Shown here: piece after piece, positions 27,866 through 46,409 of the stretch
How the letters are laid out: every line of letters starts with the position of its first letter
Numbering within the stretch: the first letter of the stretch is position 1
Origin: a virus
Direction: 5' to 3' (one strand)
IMG/VR virus record: IMGVR_UViG_3300047564_003525
Coordinates: 1 to 49,462 of that record
Length of the DNA: 49,462 bases
Notes under the pieces: model-generated
The model's database searches: none
The model's input: the letters and a program-made list of their open reading frames with translations, nothing else
What the model was told of the DNA's origin: nothing
Translations under genes and position numbers: made by a program

Positions 27866-28161
27866 GATTCGCTTCCCGTGACGGCACGGTCGACCCCGAG
27901 GAAGGCCTGCTGATGGCCTACCAGCTGTTTGCCGAAGGCCGGCCGCAGGAGGCAGCCATGATGTTCCTCGCCTACGCCGACCAGGAAAACGACATCGGCA
28001 TTGTCGGCCAGAGCGAATACGACGCTTTGGCCAAGCACCTGAAGGAGGTGCTGGCGCACGTTGCGCTCTACAACATGATCACCAGCTGCCAGATCCAGCC
28101 GGTGCTCACCGACGAGCTGGAGCCGGCCTACAAGCCCTCGCCTTGGTACACCGAGAGCTGA
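27853..28161 (+). CDS. Conserved hypothetical protein after thyX
   Basis: A 102-residue, mostly helical acidic protein (MEHMRFASRDGTVDPEEGLL MAYQLFAEGRPQEAAMMFLA). Its helix-turn-helix repeat-like pattern resembles a small TPR-type unit, but no family is certain. It is the last gene of the + strand late and metabolic block. Its 3' end overlaps the oppositely oriented integrase gene by 34 bases, and no separate terminator was seen between them. Confidence 0.62.
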   Translation: MEHMRFASRDGTVDPEEGLLMAYQLFAEGRPQEAAMMFLAYADQENDIGIVGQSEYDALAKHLKEVLAHVALYNMITSCQIQPVLTDELEPAYKPSPWYTES

Positions 28162-29252
28162 TCGGCCACCGCCGCAGCCATCGCCTTAGCGCCGTCCTCG
28201 AGCAGGTGCGCGTAGCGGCTGGTGGTCAGCGGACTAGCGTGACCGAGCAGATTGCCGACTTGCGGCAGCGTCAGACCGGCTTTGGTGATCGCTACTGAGG
28301 CCCAGTGATGCCGCGCATCGTGAACCTTGAAGTCTTTGATGCCGGCAACCTGCATCAGCTCTTCCCATAGTTTCTGATAGCCAACAAGGTGGCCATCGCC
28401 CTGCCCTGCGATAATCCATTGTGTATTCGATTTGAGACGCAGTTCTCTCAAAATGAGAATTGCCGAAGGAGGAATATGCACTATCCGCTCATGGCCAGTC
28501 TTTTTGCCAGTCTTGTGATCGCTGGCGGGCACCACCAGCAGCGCTGCCTGCTCGTCGAACCAATCCCATTTGCCGCGGCAGATTTCGCCCACCCTGCAGC
28601 CGGTCAGCATCAGCAGCCGCACCAGTTGGGCAAAGCGCCAGCGCAGTGGGCTGGTGGCGATCGTGTCCAGTGCAGCTACCAGCCGCTGCCGCTCTTCGCC
28701 TGACAGGTAACGCCGCCGCTTGCGCTCGGTGTTGGTCGGAATCTTCTGGCAGGGGTTGTCCGGCCGCAGGCCCCACAGGATCGCAAGGTTGAACGCCTTG
28801 CGCAGCACCGCCAGCGTCCGGTTGGCCTGAATTGGACGTATCGAGCCGATCAGCTTCATGACCTGCGCACTGGTCACGGCCTGCACCTTTTCGCGGCCCA
28901 GTCTGGGGATGATGTGGACCTGCCAAATGCTCCGGTAGTTCTTCGCCGTGCCCGGCCGCAGCTTCGGGTAATGCTCGGCCAGCACCCGCTGATACAGATC
29001 GGCCACTGTCGGAGCGCTGCGCAGCTCTTGGCGGGCACTGGTGGGCGATTTGCCCTGGGCGGCCGCCACGAGGATCTTGTGGGCCTCCTCGCGGGCGAGC
29101 GTGCGGTTGAGGACATCGGCTCGACCGATCTTGTGGTGCTGCTGCTTGCCGCTCGGTTCGCGGTAGCGCAGATACCAGGTTTCGACCCCGCTCGGCAGCG
29201 CCAGCAGCCCCAGCCCGGCGACCTTGGTATCGGGCTTCCACTCGCGTTTCAT
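28128..29252 (-). CDS. int: Tyrosine-type site-specific integrase
   Basis: A 374-residue tyrosine recombinase. Residues 1-75 are an N-terminal arm-binding domain (DUF4102-like, WYLRYREPSGKQQHHKIGRA), 80-165 the SAM-like core-binding domain, and 180-365 the catalytic domain. Visible catalytic residues are R220 (TGCRVGEI), K247 (DHKTGK), H311 and R314 (HDARHHW), H338 (LLGHAS) and nucleophile Y347 (SRYAHL). The start has GGAGGG upstream on its strand. It inserts and, with an excisionase, excises the phage genome. The gene faces a tRNA gene about 245 bases from its start, with repeated CGCGCAA sites between, as expected for attP. A DNA-binding HTH gene at 37026-37256 could be its excisionase. Confidence 0.95.
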   Translation of the reverse strand: MKREWKPDTKVAGLGLLALPSGVETWYLRYREPSGKQQHHKIGRADVLNRTLAREEAHKILVAAAQGKSPTSARQELRSAPTVADLYQRVLAEHYPKLRPGTAKNYRSIWQVHIIPRLGREKVQAVTSAQVMKLIGSIRPIQANRTLAVLRKAFNLAILWGLRPDNPCQKIPTNTERKRRRYLSGEERQRLVAALDTIATSPLRWRFAQLVRLLMLTGCRVGEICRGKWDWFDEQAALLVVPASDHKTGKKTGHERIVHIPPSAILILRELRLKSNTQWIIAGQGDGHLVGYQKLWEELMQVAGIKDFKVHDARHHWASVAITKAGLTLPQVGNLLGHASPLTTSRYAHLLEDGAKAMAAAVADQLSVYQGEGL

Positions 29253-29496: not shown

Positions 29497-29570
29497 GGGC
29501 CCATAACTCAATGGTAGAGTGGCGAACTTTTAATTCGCAAATCTCGGTTCAACTCCGAGTGGGCCTACCA
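29497..29570 (+). tRNA. tRNA-Lys (anticodon UUU), CCA encoded; possible part of attP
   Basis: A full cloverleaf can be drawn. The acceptor stem is GGGCCCA (29497-29503) with TGGGCCT, having one G-U pair at the end. The D stem is ACTC/GAGT. The anticodon stem is GCGAA/TTCGC with loop CTTTTAA, giving anticodon TTT. The variable loop is short, and the T arm is CTCGG-TTCAACT-CCGAG. It ends with discriminator A and an encoded CCA. It lies in a non-coding gap beside the integrase. A tRNA here usually marks the attachment site; a complete rather than 3'-partial tRNA is notable and could be functional. Confidence 0.93.
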
Positions 29571-40298: not shown

Positions 40299-40504
40299 CG
40301 AACGATTACACCTACCCCGGCCAGGCACACTTCGCCGACTCGTCGATCGGCGCTGATTGTAAAGACTGCATCTTCTACGTCCCTCGGCCGTTCGTGCAAA
40401 TTCAGCGCCACTGCTGCGCCAAGGCGAAGGTCATGACCGGCAAGTGGCTTAAGCCCATCCCGCCCTATGCGACGGCGTGCAAGTATTTCCAGCGCCGGAC
40501 ATGA
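40295..40504 (+). CDS. Small Cys-rich protein
   Basis: 69 residues with a TTG start whose last two bases begin the helicase stop. The sequence (GADCKDCIFYVPRPFVQIQR HCCAKAKVMTGKWLKPIPPY ATACKYFQRRT) has a CxxC-C-C arrangement typical of zinc or iron-sulfur knuckles, broadly like the Cys4 units of two leftward genes. Its role is unknown; coupling to the helicase suggests an accessory. Confidence 0.66.
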   Translation: MTNDYTYPGQAHFADSSIGADCKDCIFYVPRPFVQIQRHCCAKAKVMTGKWLKPIPPYATACKYFQRRT

Positions 40505-40529
40505 TGGAGCTCAGCAGCTGCCCAGATTT

Positions 40530-40901
40530 GTGGCGAACGCCGAAACCGATCTCCAGCAAAGAATCCGCCTGGCCCTCGGCCTGCTGCCCGATCTCCGCCT
40601 CTGGCGCAACAACTCCGGCAAACTCCCAGATCCGCGCACCGGCCGCTGGGTCCAGTTCGGTGTCGCCTCGCCTGGCGGCTCCGATCTCATCGGCTACCGG
40701 TCGGTCACGATCACGCCTGACATGGTCGGGCAGCGGATCGCTGTATTCACCGCCATCGAGATCAAGACAGCCACTGGCCGGGCTACCCCTGCCCAGCAGC
40801 ACTTCATCGATCACATCCGGCGGGCTGGTGGGATCGCGGCGATCGTCAGGTCGGTGGCGGAGGCGCAGAGGATTCTACAAAGCCCTTTCCCCGAGCCTTA
40901 G
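40530..40901 (+). CDS. VRR-NUC family nuclease
   Basis: 123 residues from a GTG at 40530, chosen because the family usually opens (A/V)xAExxLQxRIRLALG; an ATG at 40467 is also in frame. Motifs are ETDLQQRIRLALGLLPDLRL WRNNSGKLPDP, GVASPGGSDLIGY (catalytic D) and FTAIEIKTATGRATPAQQHF (ExK). VRR-NUC proteins of phages are Holliday-junction or flap-type nucleases. It belongs to the replication and recombination cluster. Its 3' end overlaps the oppositely oriented CoiA-like gene by 56 bases. Confidence 0.85.
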   Translation: MANAETDLQQRIRLALGLLPDLRLWRNNSGKLPDPRTGRWVQFGVASPGGSDLIGYRSVTITPDMVGQRIAVFTAIEIKTATGRATPAQQHFIDHIRRAGGIAAIVRSVAEAQRILQSPFPEP

Positions 40902-42147
40902 CCGCCTCAAACGAGCCCAAGCACGACTCGATAAACGGGGTTTCGAGACGGCCGAATCCGCCCACTGGAGCGCCTCGATACGACAGGAACTCCTTAATCA
41001 GATCGCCGCGGCGCCACTCCAGCACCAGTGGCGCAACCTGCTCCAGCAACTCAGCAGCTCTAATTCTTGCTCGCTCGGCTCGCTCAGTCTGTCGACGCTC
41101 CTCGGCTTGCCTGGCTTGCTCCTGCTCAAACCGCTCTCGACTAATGAAACTTGCCTCTTGAAGCGCAAGCTGAGCACGGCGCTCCCGCTCAAGCCGCTCC
41201 CATTCCTCCCGATCGCTCTCGTCGCGATGCCGCTGCCTCGCCCCTGCTTGGCGTATCTCCTCTTCTGCCAAGAACGCATCAATGGCTTTGCGGCGTTCAC
41301 TCCATCTCGAGACCGAATCGACGGCCTCCTGAATCGGCACGATTGCAAGCCATTCCCTGATCCCCATAAACATCATCCACTTAGGCAGCGCAGACGGGAT
41401 CAATCCCTGCGCGCACAAGTCCGACGTGCTCCAGCCGGTTCTGCGTTGCGCATCCCTGTACCAGTCGCGAAGCTCTTCAAGCTGAGCTGCGCAGCGGACC
41501 ATCTTGCCGCGCCACGCTGCAAGCGGGGCGTCGCCGTCGCACCACAGCTTGTCAGCCTCAACCGACTCGGATCGATCCAAAAATTTCATCAGCTGGCTTG
41601 GCTGGATAAAAACACCGTTCACAAACGTCCAATGACTGGCGTTGATGCTTTTTACACGCAAGAGGCCCCACGGCGTGTCAATCAACAAAGGCTTCTGTGC
41701 CGCCAGCCATACCTTGCGTGCGTGTTTCCAGCGAAAGCTGTAGCGGCCATCTTGCGAGCCAAGCCATTCCAGGTTTTTCCAGAAATCATGGCCGCACAAC
41801 AGCCAGCACATCCGACCGTAGAACTCCTCACGTTCGCGGACCTCTTCGATCGAGATGCTGCTTTTCTGAATCTCGAGCACCCCGTCGGGGCCCTTCACGT
41901 CAGCTCGGTGCGGCCCCATCGTGACCTCTTGCCACTCCGACGGGAAACGAGCCTTCCAACCTCGGTGCCATTCCGACTCCGGCTCAGACCACGGGTCGCA
42001 ATCCGCCACCGTATGCCGCCAGTGCGGCACGACGAACTCGGAAGTGACAGCAACCGCCTGCACCTCGCCGCCGCACCCCGGGCAGACGCCCCGCACACCA
42101 GAATCGACGGCCAGCGACCTCACCCCGTCAATGAGCGCCCACTTCAT
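40846..42147 (-). CDS. CoiA-like nuclease-domain protein
   Basis: A 433-residue protein. The N-terminus carries a Cys pair (CPGCGGEV), then HWRHTVADCDPWSEPESEWH RGWKARFPSEWQEVTMGPHR ADVKGPDGVLEIQKSSISIE EVREREEFYGRM, a clear match to the CoiA competence protein family, whose core is a PD-(D/E)XK nuclease fold. The C-terminal 130 residues are a long charged coiled coil (REEWERLERERRAQLALQEA). In phages its role is unestablished: ssDNA or recombination processing, or DNA uptake/defence-related, are possibilities. It is transcribed opposite to the surrounding replication genes. Confidence 0.8.
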   Translation of the reverse strand: MKWALIDGVRSLAVDSGVRGVCPGCGGEVQAVAVTSEFVVPHWRHTVADCDPWSEPESEWHRGWKARFPSEWQEVTMGPHRADVKGPDGVLEIQKSSISIEEVREREEFYGRMCWLLCGHDFWKNLEWLGSQDGRYSFRWKHARKVWLAAQKPLLIDTPWGLLRVKSINASHWTFVNGVFIQPSQLMKFLDRSESVEADKLWCDGDAPLAAWRGKMVRCAAQLEELRDWYRDAQRRTGWSTSDLCAQGLIPSALPKWMMFMGIREWLAIVPIQEAVDSVSRWSERRKAIDAFLAEEEIRQAGARQRHRDESDREEWERLERERRAQLALQEASFISRERFEQEQARQAEERRQTERAERARIRAAELLEQVAPLVLEWRRGDLIKEFLSYRGAPVGGFGRLETPFIESCLGSFEAAKARGKGFVESSAPPPPT

Positions 42148-42225
42148 AGAAATCTGAAGAATTGTCCAAATAGTACCACCAGAGTGGCCAATGGGGTATC
42201 ATTCAGTGCGCACTCCCCGACGCTG

Positions 42226-42366
42226 ATGAAGCGCATACCGCTCCTCCTTCCGCCCGAGATGATCGCTTGGCTGGAAGCCAAGACCACAGGCATCGAAAAC
42301 CGTCAGACCTTCATTCGGCGCCTTCTCTCCGAGGCCATGAAGGACGACCTGCGGGCCAAGGGTTGA
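42226..42366 (+). CDS. Ribbon-helix-helix (CopG-like) protein
   Basis: A 46-residue protein (MKRIPLLLPPEMIAWLEAKT TGIENRQTFIRRLLSEAM). One strand followed by two helices fits the RHH fold, which binds DNA as a dimer. It lies immediately upstream of the primase-helicase gene (stop to ATG, two bases) and divergent from the CoiA-like gene. It is a plausible local repressor of this intergenic region. Confidence 0.68.
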   Translation: MKRIPLLLPPEMIAWLEAKTTGIENRQTFIRRLLSEAMKDDLRAKG

Positions 42367-42368
42367 TC

Positions 42369-45002
42369 ATGCGCACCAGCATCAACGACCTCGCCCAAGG
42401 CCGCTGGGTCGAGATCCTCTCGACCGTTGGCGGTATCCCTGTTCATTACCTCGACAACAAGCACAAGCCCTGTCCCTCCTGTCGTGATGGCGACGATCGC
42501 TTTCGCTTCGACGATCAGGACGGCAATGGCACATGGTTCTGCTCGCACTGCGGCGGCAAGGACGCCACAGGCGGCGGCGGCAGCGGCATGTCGCTCTTGA
42601 TGCGCGTCAAAGGCTGGGAGTTCAAGGAAGCCGCCCGCGCAGTCGAGGACTATCTCGGCGTTCCTCGCCCATCCAGCTCAAAGCCCGTGACCCCTCGCCC
42701 CATCAAGCCGCCCGTCGACGCCGCAGCGCCTGCCCTCGACGGCGCATCACACCAGTGGTGTTACACCGATGCCGCCGGCGAGCCGCTGTTCTGGATTCAG
42801 CGCATCACCCGCCCGAACGGCGACAAGATCTTCCGCCCCCGCACCTGGGTCGATGGCATCGGTTGGCAGGGCGACAAGGGCACTAGCTGGCCTGCCCCAC
42901 GCCCGCTCTACAACCTCGCCGCTCTCCACGCCCGGCCCGAGGCGCAGGTGGTCGTCTGCGAAGGCGAGAAAGCCGCCGATCGCGCACAGGAGCTCTTCCC
43001 CCGCCTCGTTGTCGTCGCATGGCCCAACGGCGCACAGTCTGTCGGCAAGGTTGACTGGTCGCCCCTCGCTGGCCGCAGCATTCTCCTGTGGCCCGACAAC
43101 GATGACGAAGGCCGCAAGGCCATGGCCAAGATCGCCACGCTGATCAAAGAGCCGGTCAAGCTGTTCACCATCGATGCCCCGCCAGACGCGCCCGAGAAGT
43201 GGGACATCGCCGATGCTGACTGGACGCCAGCGGAGGCTCTTGCCTACGTCAAAGCAAATTGCCGACCGATGGAGCCGCCCGAGCCGGAGCTCGAGCCCGA
43301 GCTGACCGCCGAGCTCGTCGAGATTACCGAGTCACCCGCCAAGCCGCAACGCACTCGCGATGCAGGTCGCCTTGAAGGCATGCCGTTTCGCTGCCTTGGC
43401 TTTGACCGCGGCCTTTACTTTTACCTTCCCGAGAAAGCCGGCCAGGTCATTGCACTCACTCCAGCGCAGCACACCCGCAGTTACCTCAACACGCTGGCAC
43501 CGCTGCTGCGGTGGTCCGACGCGTTTGGCAGCATCAACGAGAAGAGCGGCGAAACCCAAATCGCCTGGGCCAGTGCCGCCGACGCGCTGATAGAGGCCTG
43601 CACTGAAGTCGGGGTCTACGATCCCGCTCGTGTGCGCGGCCGTGGCGCCTGGGCCGACGCCGGCCGCGTCATCCTGCACCTCGGCAACCGCTTGGTCATC
43701 AACGGCGCATCAAGCCCTATTACCAAGCTCCCGGAGGAGTTCGCGAGCTACTACTTCTACGAAAACGCCAAGCCGATCGAAGGGCCCGGCCAAGATACCC
43801 TCGCCGACACCGTCGCCGCCGAGATCAAGCAAATCGCCTCCTGCTTTCGCTGGGAGACCCAAGCATCCGCCAACCTCGTGCTCGGTTGGATCGTCCTCGC
43901 GCCCGTCTGCGGTGCTCTGGACTGGCGGCCACACATCTGGGTCACTGGCCCCGCCGGTTCCGGCAAGACCAGCCTGTTGAAGCTGTTCATGAAGCCCATG
44001 CTCGGCGGCATGTTCGAAGGCGCAACTGGCGGCACCACTGAGGCCGGCCTTCGCGGCCAGCTGCGCTCTGACGCCATTCCGATCGTCTTCGACGAGCTCG
44101 AGCAGAACGAACAGAAGGACAAGCAGCAGGTTCAGAACATCCTGTCGCTGGCCAGGATCGCCAGCTCTGAGGGCGGCAAGATCTACAAGGGCACCACAAA
44201 CGGCGGCGTCAATACATTCGAGATCCGCTCGATGTTCTGCGTCTCTTCGATCAACGTTGCTCTCGTTCAACGCGCTGACCTTGATCGATTCTGCGTCCTT
44301 AGCCTGCGCAAAGACCAAGTGCCGAAAGACGACTGGAACGCTTTCGAAGCTCGCATCATGAAGGCTTGCACTGACGAAAACGGCCGCGAACTTGTCGCTC
44401 GGACAATTAGTCAGATCCCCATCATTAGAAAGAACGCCAAGACACTCGCTGGCGCCCTATCCAGCAAATTCGGCCAGCGATTCGGCGACCAGTACGGCAC
44501 CCTGCTTGCCGGCGCTTGGACACTCGAACCCAGCGGCGGCGGTGAACTGACCCCAGAGAAAGCCACCGAGTGGATTGATTCCATGGACTGGCAGAACCGT
44601 GAGGTCGACACCAACGATGCCGACGAGGTCAAGTGCATCAACAAGATCCTGCAGACCATCTTGCAGCTCGACGGCGGGCGCCGGATTTCAATCTTTGAGC
44701 TGGTGCAACTTGCCGCCAGCGGCAAGGTCTTCGTGACTGAAGGCAGCCTGTCCCCAGGTGACGAGGTGGAGACCCTCCTAGGCCGCTACGGGCTCAAGGT
44801 CACCAACGGATGCCTGGCGGTGGCCAACAGTAGCACCAACCTGCAGGCCTTGCTGCGTGACACGCCATGGGCCGGAACGGCGTATCGGCAGGCCCTGCGC
44901 CGCCTGCCAGAGGCGACCAGCGCAACATCGACCGTGCGCTTCAAAGGCATGGGTCCGTCACGCGCAACATTGGTCTCACTTGAGACGCTTGAGATCTTGT
45001 AA
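42369..45002 (+). CDS. Primase-helicase with TOPRIM and AAA-type ATPase domains
   Basis: An 877-residue protein starting MRTSINDLAQGRWVEILSTV. Residues 25-65 hold a CHC2-like zinc ribbon (C35-C38 and C58-C61). The TOPRIM primase domain lies at about 190-270 (AQVVVCEGEKAADRA, LLWPDNDDEGRKA). A linker with Pro/Glu repeats follows, and then an ATPase/helicase domain with Walker A TGPAGSGKTS (about 525) and Walker B IPIVFDELEQ (about 570). It synthesises primers and unwinds DNA at the phage fork, like T7 gp4 and phage DUF927/D5-like proteins. Its stop is directly followed by an AACGGT-rich, AT-rich region, a candidate origin. Confidence 0.92.
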   Translation: MRTSINDLAQGRWVEILSTVGGIPVHYLDNKHKPCPSCRDGDDRFRFDDQDGNGTWFCSHCGGKDATGGGGSGMSLLMRVKGWEFKEAARAVEDYLGVPRPSSSKPVTPRPIKPPVDAAAPALDGASHQWCYTDAAGEPLFWIQRITRPNGDKIFRPRTWVDGIGWQGDKGTSWPAPRPLYNLAALHARPEAQVVVCEGEKAADRAQELFPRLVVVAWPNGAQSVGKVDWSPLAGRSILLWPDNDDEGRKAMAKIATLIKEPVKLFTIDAPPDAPEKWDIADADWTPAEALAYVKANCRPMEPPEPELEPELTAELVEITESPAKPQRTRDAGRLEGMPFRCLGFDRGLYFYLPEKAGQVIALTPAQHTRSYLNTLAPLLRWSDAFGSINEKSGETQIAWASAADALIEACTEVGVYDPARVRGRGAWADAGRVILHLGNRLVINGASSPITKLPEEFASYYFYENAKPIEGPGQDTLADTVAAEIKQIASCFRWETQASANLVLGWIVLAPVCGALDWRPHIWVTGPAGSGKTSLLKLFMKPMLGGMFEGATGGTTEAGLRGQLRSDAIPIVFDELEQNEQKDKQQVQNILSLARIASSEGGKIYKGTTNGGVNTFEIRSMFCVSSINVALVQRADLDRFCVLSLRKDQVPKDDWNAFEARIMKACTDENGRELVARTISQIPIIRKNAKTLAGALSSKFGQRFGDQYGTLLAGAWTLEPSGGGELTPEKATEWIDSMDWQNREVDTNDADEVKCINKILQTILQLDGGRRISIFELVQLAASGKVFVTEGSLSPGDEVETLLGRYGLKVTNGCLAVANSSTNLQALLRDTPWAGTAYRQALRRLPEATSATSTVRFKGMGPSRATLVSLETLEIL

Positions 45003-45259
45003 CGGTTTTGGGGCGCCTGAAACGGTGATGTAACGCTGCAAGCCCTTGGTATGACTGGGATGTGTCGCCAGAAACGGTTGTAACGGTTTTTCCCGGGAAA
45101 GCCCCTAAGACATACACACAGCCCCTGAGCCCCTTTGACCCCCTCTCTACTACTACTACTACTATCTATTAATATAGATTTGTTTGTTACAACGTTACAA
45201 CCCAGTCAGGGCAAGGGGTTTGGGTGTAACGGTCACCGTTACGCCACCGTTACACCGTT
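45001..45259. other. Candidate replication origin: AACGGT iterons and AT-rich element
   Basis: Eight copies of AACGGT (or its complement ACCGTT) occur at 45001, 45021, 45073, 45082, 45228, 45235, 45246 and 45254. Two tandem GTTACAAC copies lie at 45186 and 45194. GTAACGGTCACCGTTAC at 45226-45242 is a perfect 17-bp dyad. Between the groups lies an AT-rich stretch with (CTA)x6 at 45147-45164 and the dyad ATCTAT-TAAT-ATAGAT at 45164-45179, unusual in this GC-rich genome. Iterons around an easily melted stretch, beside the primase-helicase, suggest an origin. It could instead be an operator array. Confidence 0.55.
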
Positions 45260-45264
45260 ACGCC

Positions 45265-45477
45265 ATGCCTAAAGCCACCCCCGACCACCAACGTCTAGCC
45301 GGCAGCCCCACCAGCTGGCCCTCCTGGCCCCGTGGAAGGGCTTGCAAGGTCTTCATGGGATGTGGATGGGCATCAGGCACCTGGGACGGCCTTACAGGCG
45401 ATTGTGGGCGTGTCTGGCTAGGGAAGGACCAGCGGCACGTCATGGTCAGGGATGCGCGGAACATCAAGCCGGGGTAG
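45265..45477 (+). CDS. Small Trp/Gly-rich hypothetical protein
   Basis: 70 residues from ATG 45265 (MPKATPDHQRLAGSPTSWPS WPRGRACKVFMGCGWASGTW DGLTGDCGRVWLGKDQRHVM). The second half resembles a small KOW/SH3-type barrel (FMGCGWASGTW...GRVWLGKDQ). The start lies three codons after the last AACGGT-type repeat, so expression may be controlled by the repeat-binding factor. Unknown role. Confidence 0.58.
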   Translation: MPKATPDHQRLAGSPTSWPSWPRGRACKVFMGCGWASGTWDGLTGDCGRVWLGKDQRHVMVRDARNIKPG

Positions 45478-46321: not shown

Positions 46322-46409
46322 CAGGGGTTGTTTTTACACACCCCTGGCGACCGGTTTATGGGTTTGCCCGAACAGGGGTACTACCACCCTGGTGTGGGGT
46401 GGACCAGGG
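46322..46409 (+). other. Two hairpins in a 241-bp gene-free gap
   Basis: CAGGGGT (46322-46328) / ACCCCTG (46340-46346) encloses an 11-base T-rich loop, and CCCTGGT (46387-46393) / ACCAGGG (46403-46409) a nine-base loop. Both are perfect seven-pair stems. A second CGGTTTA lies between them at 46352. They may be terminators, attenuators or a structured leader/small RNA for the gene at 46541. No gene is evident between 46300 and 46540. Confidence 0.45.

Follow-up and report, generated by a model that had tools for sequence, protein, structure and literature searches.

A probable iteron origin behind the primase-helicase gene of a tailed phage, and a protein residue that tracks one of its bases

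Where does a temperate tailed phage that encodes its own primase-helicase begin to copy its genome, and which protein recognizes the place? The question is raised by a linear IMG/VR virus record of 49,462 nt (IMGVR_UViG_3300047564_003525; the window, meaning this whole stretch), analyzed here by computation. Its replication block ends in a primase-helicase gene, and a cluster of short repeats (iterons) begins on the stop codon of that gene. Comparison with related loci makes it very probable that positions 44998-45262 are the replication origin of the phage. With almost the same confidence the C-terminal domain (CTD) of the primase-helicase can be named as the likely reader of the iterons, because the iteron covaries with the CTD and both are exchanged together. 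Residue 857 of this domain would probably contact a base directly, with arginine facing guanine.

The iteron unit is TGTAACG(G/C)T, and about 11 copies at 44998-45262 flank an AT-rich (CTA)n stretch. Of these, the first shares bases with the stop codon (45000-45002) and the rest lie past it. To the left of the AT-rich stretch there are five plus-strand iterons (three exact, one with one mismatch and one with two); to the right there are two minus-strand iterons nearby, then a dyad, and then two more minus-strand copies. A second element left of the stretch has an inverted copy on its right, and the whole region is therefore roughly mirror-symmetric around the CTA stretch. The features, in positions of the window, are these:

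42369-45002, plus strand: primase-helicase, 877 amino acids, with zinc ribbon, Toprim primase, AAA+ helicase and C-terminal DNA-binding domain; proposed initiator
44595-44999, plus strand: CTD of the primase-helicase, proposed iteron-binding domain, covarying and exchanged with the iterons
44937-44939, plus strand: codon of Arg857, in a predicted wing strand, tracking iteron base 2
44998-45262, no strand: proposed replication origin, iterons and AT-rich element, with a layout conserved in relatives
44998-45004, plus strand: iteron TGTAACG (exact), on the stop codon
45018-45024, plus strand: iteron TGAAACG (one mismatch)
45029-45035, plus strand: iteron TGTAACG (exact)
45043-45059, plus strand: second conserved element, left copy (CCCTTGGTATGACTGGG), forming an inverted repeat with 45197-45220; similar elements seen by eye in relatives
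45070-45076, plus strand: iteron-like AGAAACG (two mismatches)
45079-45085, plus strand: iteron TGTAACG (exact)
45147-45185, no strand: proposed unwinding element, AT-rich with CTA trinucleotides; the AT maximum stands at a fixed distance from the stop codon in relatives
45185-45191, minus strand: iteron (one mismatch)
45193-45199, minus strand: iteron TGTAACG (exact)
45201-45217, minus strand: second element, right inverted copy (CCCAGTCAGGGCAAGGG on the plus strand)
45225-45231, plus strand: iteron TGTAACG (exact), left arm of the 17-bp dyad
45237-45243, minus strand: iteron CGTAACG (one mismatch), right arm of the dyad
45248-45254, minus strand: iteron TGTAACG (exact)
45256-45262, minus strand: iteron CGTAACG (one mismatch)

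The half-sites CCCTTGC and GCAAGGG of the second inverted element, which flanks the unwinding stretch, are found in many relatives.

An earlier note on this DNA had proposed a candidate origin made of iterons and an AT-rich unwinding element, built on eight AACGGT/ACCGTT copies. All eight are in place (plus strand at 45001, 45021, 45073, 45082 and 45228; minus strand at 45235, 45246 and 45254), and so are the 17-bp dyad at 45226-45242, the CTA repeats, ATCTAT-TAAT-ATAGAT and the tandem GTTACAAC at 45186-45193 and 45194-45201. The repeats are thus real, but their unit had been misread. AACGGT covers just the 3' portion of the full unit (TGTAACGG/CT), in which TGTAACG is followed by either GT or CT, and was dropped as the repeat unit; the longer unit also takes in the GTTACAAC copies that had been counted apart. 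AACGGT/ACCGTT occurs 25 times in the whole window, eight of them here, with a chance mean of 16.3 per window and one of 100 shuffles reaching 25. For TGTAACG with at most one mismatch, the densest 300-nt windows of the entire record fall on this region, with nine sites. The origin proposal itself is supported by layout, conservation and covariation.

The same layout lies downstream of the primase-helicase gene in most relatives above 40% identity. Loci were gathered by scans with the protein and its alignments, 27 at first and then more from viral contigs; four loci without a stop codon and 25 of 166 that were not anchored were left out. The unit varies by lineage (TGTAACG, TGTCACG, TGTGACG, TGTTACG, TCTAACG, TCTCACG, TCTTACG, TCATACG, CATTACG, CCTAACG and others), and copies were counted with the form [TC][GCA][TA]N[ACG]C[GC], fixed after the discovery loci had been viewed. 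Loss of the repeats in close relatives, which the earlier note had named as speaking against an origin, is not what is seen: arrays of at least three copies are kept at 21 of 22 loci with at least 60% identity and at 38 of 41 with 45-60%, followed by 46 of 58 at 40-45% and 8 of 16 at 35-40%. At least five copies occur in 56 of 84 origin regions, a set preselected for at least three copies, versus 2 of 840 control windows from other parts of related loci; 92 of the 840 hold at least three. Iterons with at most one mismatch stand on both sides of the AT maximum in the window and in all 83 of 83 nonredundant loci. This maximum lies a median of 165 nt past the stop codon (interquartile range 151-180) and averages 28.8 A/T per 40 nt, the figure for random stretches of these loci being 21.2. 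Over the 83 loci, left-side iterons are 317 plus and 138 minus, and right-side iterons 293 minus and 120 plus.

The CTA stretch could also suggest that host DnaA opens the origin, the trinucleotides serving as a DnaA-trio; its lower-strand TAG trinucleotides presumably resemble such trios, and short tandem tracts occur in 23 of 84 loci compared with 41 of 1680 random stretches. The tract is absent, however, in 61 of the 84 loci, the conserved repeats track a phage protein, and no DnaA box was found near the region, the sole TTWTNCACA match standing at 46332. Opening by DnaA is thus most improbable. The earlier note had left the binder open between the primase-helicase and a host factor; the covariation with the CTD and the joint exchange described next favour the primase-helicase.

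For the covariation analysis, loci with fewer than three copies were dropped (100 of 128 kept) and near-duplicates removed, leaving 65. Motif distance follows CTD identity when core identity is given (partial Mantel -0.243, with 0 of 2000 permutations as low); against core identity given the CTD the sign is reversed (0.107), hence no such link. In a scan of 384 columns, residue 857 reached a partial r of 0.89 versus 0.56 for the next column, the best other CTD column giving 0.39. All 65 discovery loci follow one rule: arginine goes with G at iteron base 2 (44/44), tyrosine, histidine or tryptophan with C (17/17), and histidine with A (4/4). The preceding helix (Gln/Ser) and a Cys-Trp pair were tried as the setters of base 2 and dropped, being contradicted by loci L098-L101.

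Since residue 857 had emerged from scanning columns, it was checked on loci fetched afterwards. From 219 new loci, 3 without a CTD, 9 with short downstream sequence and 106 with tails identical to earlier ones were removed, and 29 of the remaining 101 had fewer than three copies. Among the 72 left, which are relatives of the discovery loci and still include near-identical tails, 71 agree (35 with arginine and G, 36 with another residue and C, one with arginine and C). The 84 nonredundant loci comprise 54 with arginine and G, one with arginine and another base, none with another residue and G, and 29 with neither, so that 83 of 84 fit, including 30 of the 31 new loci in this set. Tryptophan goes with CC in 8 of 8 and tyrosine with TC in 11 of 11 nonredundant loci. 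The sole exception, L395, has the GC-rich CCACCCC, which is taken as a false motif and is still counted as an exception; among loci with at least four copies there are no exceptions in 70. Fisher's test gives p 1e-21 for the link, with relatedness ignored. Control windows carry no link between residue and base (17, 46, 6 and 23 in the same four classes). Eight loci read by eye and kept outside the counts also fit, namely L052, L116, L147, L149, L158, L164 and L184 with arginine and G, and L075 with histidine and C; a ninth, L176, was not readable.

On a tree of the helicase core, built without the CTD, the residue class changes nine times, at least five of them forced by starred (well-supported) branches; base 2 changes ten times, the extra change being L395. 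The independent pairs on starred branches all go in the same direction (5/5). These data bear on whether residue 857 is itself the reader or only a linked marker, base 2 being read elsewhere in the CTD, a possibility that rivals the contact and not the origin. The CTD adjoins the origin and is exchanged with it as a block, and the relation is statistical, which speaks for a linked marker; the other CTD columns of that same block, however, track far less (0.39 at best), and the change recurs about nine times, with tyrosine, histidine or tryptophan. Arginine to guanine is, moreover, a common protein-DNA contact. A mere marker therefore seems rather unlikely, and a direct contact by residue 857 is preferred.

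A natural exchange is seen in one near-identical pair. Loci L258 and L261 share about 90% DNA identity across the helicase core, a level that resumes some 340 nt past the stop codon; from about -300 to +280 (some 600 bp) identity is only 36-73%. The divergent block covers all of the origin and the greater part of the CTD, and residue and iteron switched together: L258 has arginine with TGTTACG, and L261 tyrosine with TCTGACG. In 287 pairs more than 80% identical on both sides, none combined a CTD below 70% with an origin above 80%. The converse pattern is present in cyanobacterial loci L113, L117, L120-L122, L129 and L145, with origins below 65% beside CTDs of 66-84%, so that drift can be faster in the origin than in the CTD. 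At greater distance, L012 and L015 repeat the exchange pattern (core 68-90% alike, CTD 30-48%, the L012 iteron being TCATACG). Separately, the genome of Cyanobium sp. Cruz-8D1 holds five family loci (L104, L105, L124, L132 and L140) with TCTAACG-type as well as TGTAACG/TGTGACG-type iterons, a mixture that would agree with a need to keep origins distinct.

This evidence also bears on two other uses of such repeats. As an operator cluster they would be bound by a transcriptional regulator of the downstream genes; inverted dyads are typical of operators, the region precedes structural genes, and there is one promoter-like match, on the minus strand at 45200-45171. Yet the iteron changes follow the primase-helicase CTD residue by residue, L258 and L261 differ by exchange of the CTD and repeats alone, and the AT-rich element keeps a fixed distance between two arms; no plus-strand promoter-like site was found. 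An operator is accordingly very unlikely. A packaging (cos/pac) or partition site, read by terminase or a ParB-like protein, would agree with clustered repeats adjoining structural genes; the covariation is nevertheless with the primase-helicase, and no terminase or ParB was recognized among the window proteins scanned, which leaves this alternative hardly credible. A replication origin read by the primase-helicase remains the preferred reading.

The protein itself matches PF08273 and phrog_35358. Its homologous start is the Met at 42369 and not the TTG at 42267, relatives starting at or near the same Met. The full-length model (pLDDT 77, pTM 0.46) resembles a DnaG-type Toprim in its primase part (Z 14.0). 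Residues 337-746 resemble Cch of the staphylococcal cassette chromosome mec (SCCmec) (5dgk_B, Z 13.9, 341 residues aligned, root-mean-square deviation (rmsd) 5.5) and Rep of the Staphylococcus aureus pathogenicity island SaPI5 (7ola_C, Z 12.6, 306 aligned, rmsd 6.2). MCM chains score like Rep and Cch (Z about 13). The predicted helicase thus has a Rep/Cch-like AAA+ fold; no solved Rep or Cch was matched by single sequence or profile. The CTD modelled alone (pLDDT 89, pTM 0.83) consists of helices and a wing-like hairpin, in which residue 857 is CTD residue 115, in strand 114-116 after helix 96-102. The VIA-align comparison of the CTD gave few rows, all weak, and initiator helicases stand among them: a Coxiella protein of unknown function (Z 4.5, the best), SaPIBov1 Rep (8tch_B, Z 4.4, rmsd 4.3, 105 residues), PriRep1 with DNA (Z 3.1) and Cch (Z 2.9). 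'Winged helix' is here a reading of the predicted model rather than a firm fold assignment.

The N-terminal primase half is swapped in L015, L017, L019-L022, L025 and L029, with helicase, CTD and iterons kept, a modular primase exchange. These loci align only from about residue 333 on and still have TGTAACG or a near form, and the N-terminal half is therefore not the iteron reader. Three further loci, L028 (2921-6670), L134 and L140, contain some 340-350 extra residues within the helicase core (629-632 amino acids, against 281 to 293 in the others). The insert in L028 matches LAGLIDADG homing endonuclease models and is probably an intein.

We propose the following model of initiation. The winged-helix-like CTD would bind the iterons (TGTAACGGT) on both flanks and thereby set two helicase rings there. 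The AT-rich (CTA)n stretch between the rings would melt, and the rings, being self-loading helicases, would load; the Toprim primase fused to them would make the first primers. We infer both the melting and bidirectional initiation at this region. In a wider form of the model, towards which we lean slightly, residue 857 would be an evolvable direct reader of base 2 (arginine with G; tyrosine or histidine with C after T; tryptophan with CC), and origin types would change by substitution or by trade of the CTD and origin. This would yield mutually incompatible cyanophage origins that bar satellites, prophages and rivals from one another's initiator. That escape from satellites or rival prophages drove this diversification is a guess.

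Several observations weigh against these proposals. (i) The downstream array is mostly gone beyond about 35% identity (1 of 22 loci below 35%), and only one of nine further GenBank phages (L184) has it, the other eight (L177-L183 and L185) showing no iteron array within 420 nt behind the gene; the layout is not universal. (ii) The majority orientation is convergent on both sides in just 50 of 83 loci. (iii) There are just five independent pairs on well-supported branches (two-sided p 0.0625). (iv) Iteron base 4 varies between near-identical proteins, and no column among those scanned tracks it, so that the iteron is not read at every base. (v) Fold comparison gives weak matches for the CTD (best Z 4.5) and Foldseek none below E 0.001; a CTD profile search of the PDB found no solved relative, and whole-protein profiles found nothing credible. 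(vi) The GC-skew profile, a check that the earlier note had proposed, is divided. In the window, the minimum of the mean-corrected cumulative skew is 160 bp away from the site; in six relatives of 53-58 kb it lies 773 and 766 bp away in two and 6.6-7.6 kb away in four, and in the isolated Synechococcus phage S-H1 (MK105819, 39 kb genome) it is 15.2 kb off. Gene direction and common ancestry both confound the skew, which carries little weight.

Head, tail, lysis and integrase genes are all present in the window, whose proteins include the major head protein, tape measure, tail fibre, endolysin and other structural gene products. Neither terminase nor portal was recognized among the proteins scanned, and the record, of the linear class in IMG/VR, may be incomplete. 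The integrase gene (28128-29252, minus strand) lies beside a complete tRNA-Lys(ttt) (29497-29570, plus strand), the only match of an Rfam scan and perhaps located at the attachment site; the phage is temperate. Just before the primase-helicase gene, an open reading frame of 629 amino acids (40477-42366) has no match among Pfam and PHROG families. Right behind the origin, 45265-45477 encodes 70 amino acids (MPKATPDHQRLAG...) without a PHROG family, and similar frames were seen by eye in L012, L015, L017, L020 and L028. Of the family loci, 74 are from bacterial or archaeal genomes; the nearest are mostly in Cyanobium, Synechococcus and Vulcanococcus. A picocyanobacterium is accordingly the most likely host, the phage being taken as a virus of freshwater cyanobacteria. 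The region DNA had no match in GenBank phages, and a terminator search found none. L184, Pararheinheimera phage KLER1-1, shows by eye, immediately behind its primase gene, a TGTNAGC array with ATT repeats; it has arginine at the wing position and is a cultured candidate outside cyanobacteria.

How does this origin compare with known systems? Among the closest is the replication module (Pri-Rep and ori) of staphylococcal and Gram-negative islands. In the SaPI, the CTD of Rep acts on an iteron origin directly downstream of its own gene (PMC7581432), and in the phage-inducible chromosomal islands (PICI) two iteron sets flank an AT-rich region (PMC6092414). The arrangement here is alike in placing the origin immediately 3' of the initiator-helicase gene, the first iteron even overlapping the stop codon, and in the helicase fold (7ola, Z 12.6). 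Origin recognition by a C-terminal domain, described for those islands (PMC7581432, PMC6092414), is here proposed from covariation and block exchange. The differences are a Toprim (DnaG-like) primase fused to the helicase and the carrier, here a tailed phage that has head and tail genes of its own. The region would thus work like a SaPI/PICI-type module. The element is not a PICI because it has virion genes of its own, whereas those satellites borrow the particle of a helper phage and lack a structural gene set of their own. SCCmec offers the best helicase fold match (Cch, 5dgk_B, Z 13.9), and there the CTD of Cch2, taken alone, binds iterons that lie downstream of its operon (PMC7581432); that system differs in its five-base iteron unit, its separate primase-polymerase and its place in a chromosomal cassette.

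Other initiators share single traits. In the phage P4 origin, ori1 and crr lie apart. The P4 alpha protein unites Toprim primase, helicase and a C-terminal winged-helix origin-binding domain in one chain (PMC4234260, PMC10516667). The present protein matches the first two by fold, and its CTD model, with helices and a wing-like hairpin, has no firm fold match. P4 differs in being a satellite; the P4 origin-binding domain structure was not among the VIA-align rows for the CTD. In the Vibrio cholerae phage satellite PLE (phage-inducible chromosomal island-like element), the DNA-binding domain of RepA covaries with the origin and was swapped with it several times, an origin-directed phage nuclease being the proposed driver (PMC8263062). 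The joint covariation and swapping are alike; PLE differs in its RepA_N initiator, its iterons of about 30 bp and its being a satellite, and the part of that source used here tells of no single tracking residue (PMC8263062). ORF904 of the crenarchaeal plasmid pRN1 is a primase-helicase with a C-terminal winged helix and an origin just downstream of its gene; there the origin is a large stem-loop without iterons and the primase is not of the Toprim type (PMC4234260). Unlike DnaA-dependent or Rep_3/RepA iteron-plasmid origins, the present one has no DnaA boxes beside its iterons, and unlike lambda-type origins its iterons are not inside the initiator reading frame, only the first overlapping the stop codon.

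Among the open PubMed Central papers listed, none resembled by title and abstract a description of this origin family or of the residue relation, and a satellite survey called this origin layout unique to satellites (PMC6092414). What appears new is a PICI-type origin in complete tailed phages, its scale, the single-residue specificity switch and the natural cassette exchange. A layout described as unique to satellites would thus extend to complete tailed phages, and many natural initiator-origin pairs with changed specificity are supplied. The correlation between residue 857 and base 2 suggests how such start sites change type, and it becomes possible to test how an initiator could change in step with an origin of many copies, with no unfit stage in between. 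Sequence alone would predict which co-resident phages and satellites could cross-activate origins. As an iteron origin the system is ordinary in kind; compared with its satellite counterparts it is unusual in its carrier, and unusually informative.

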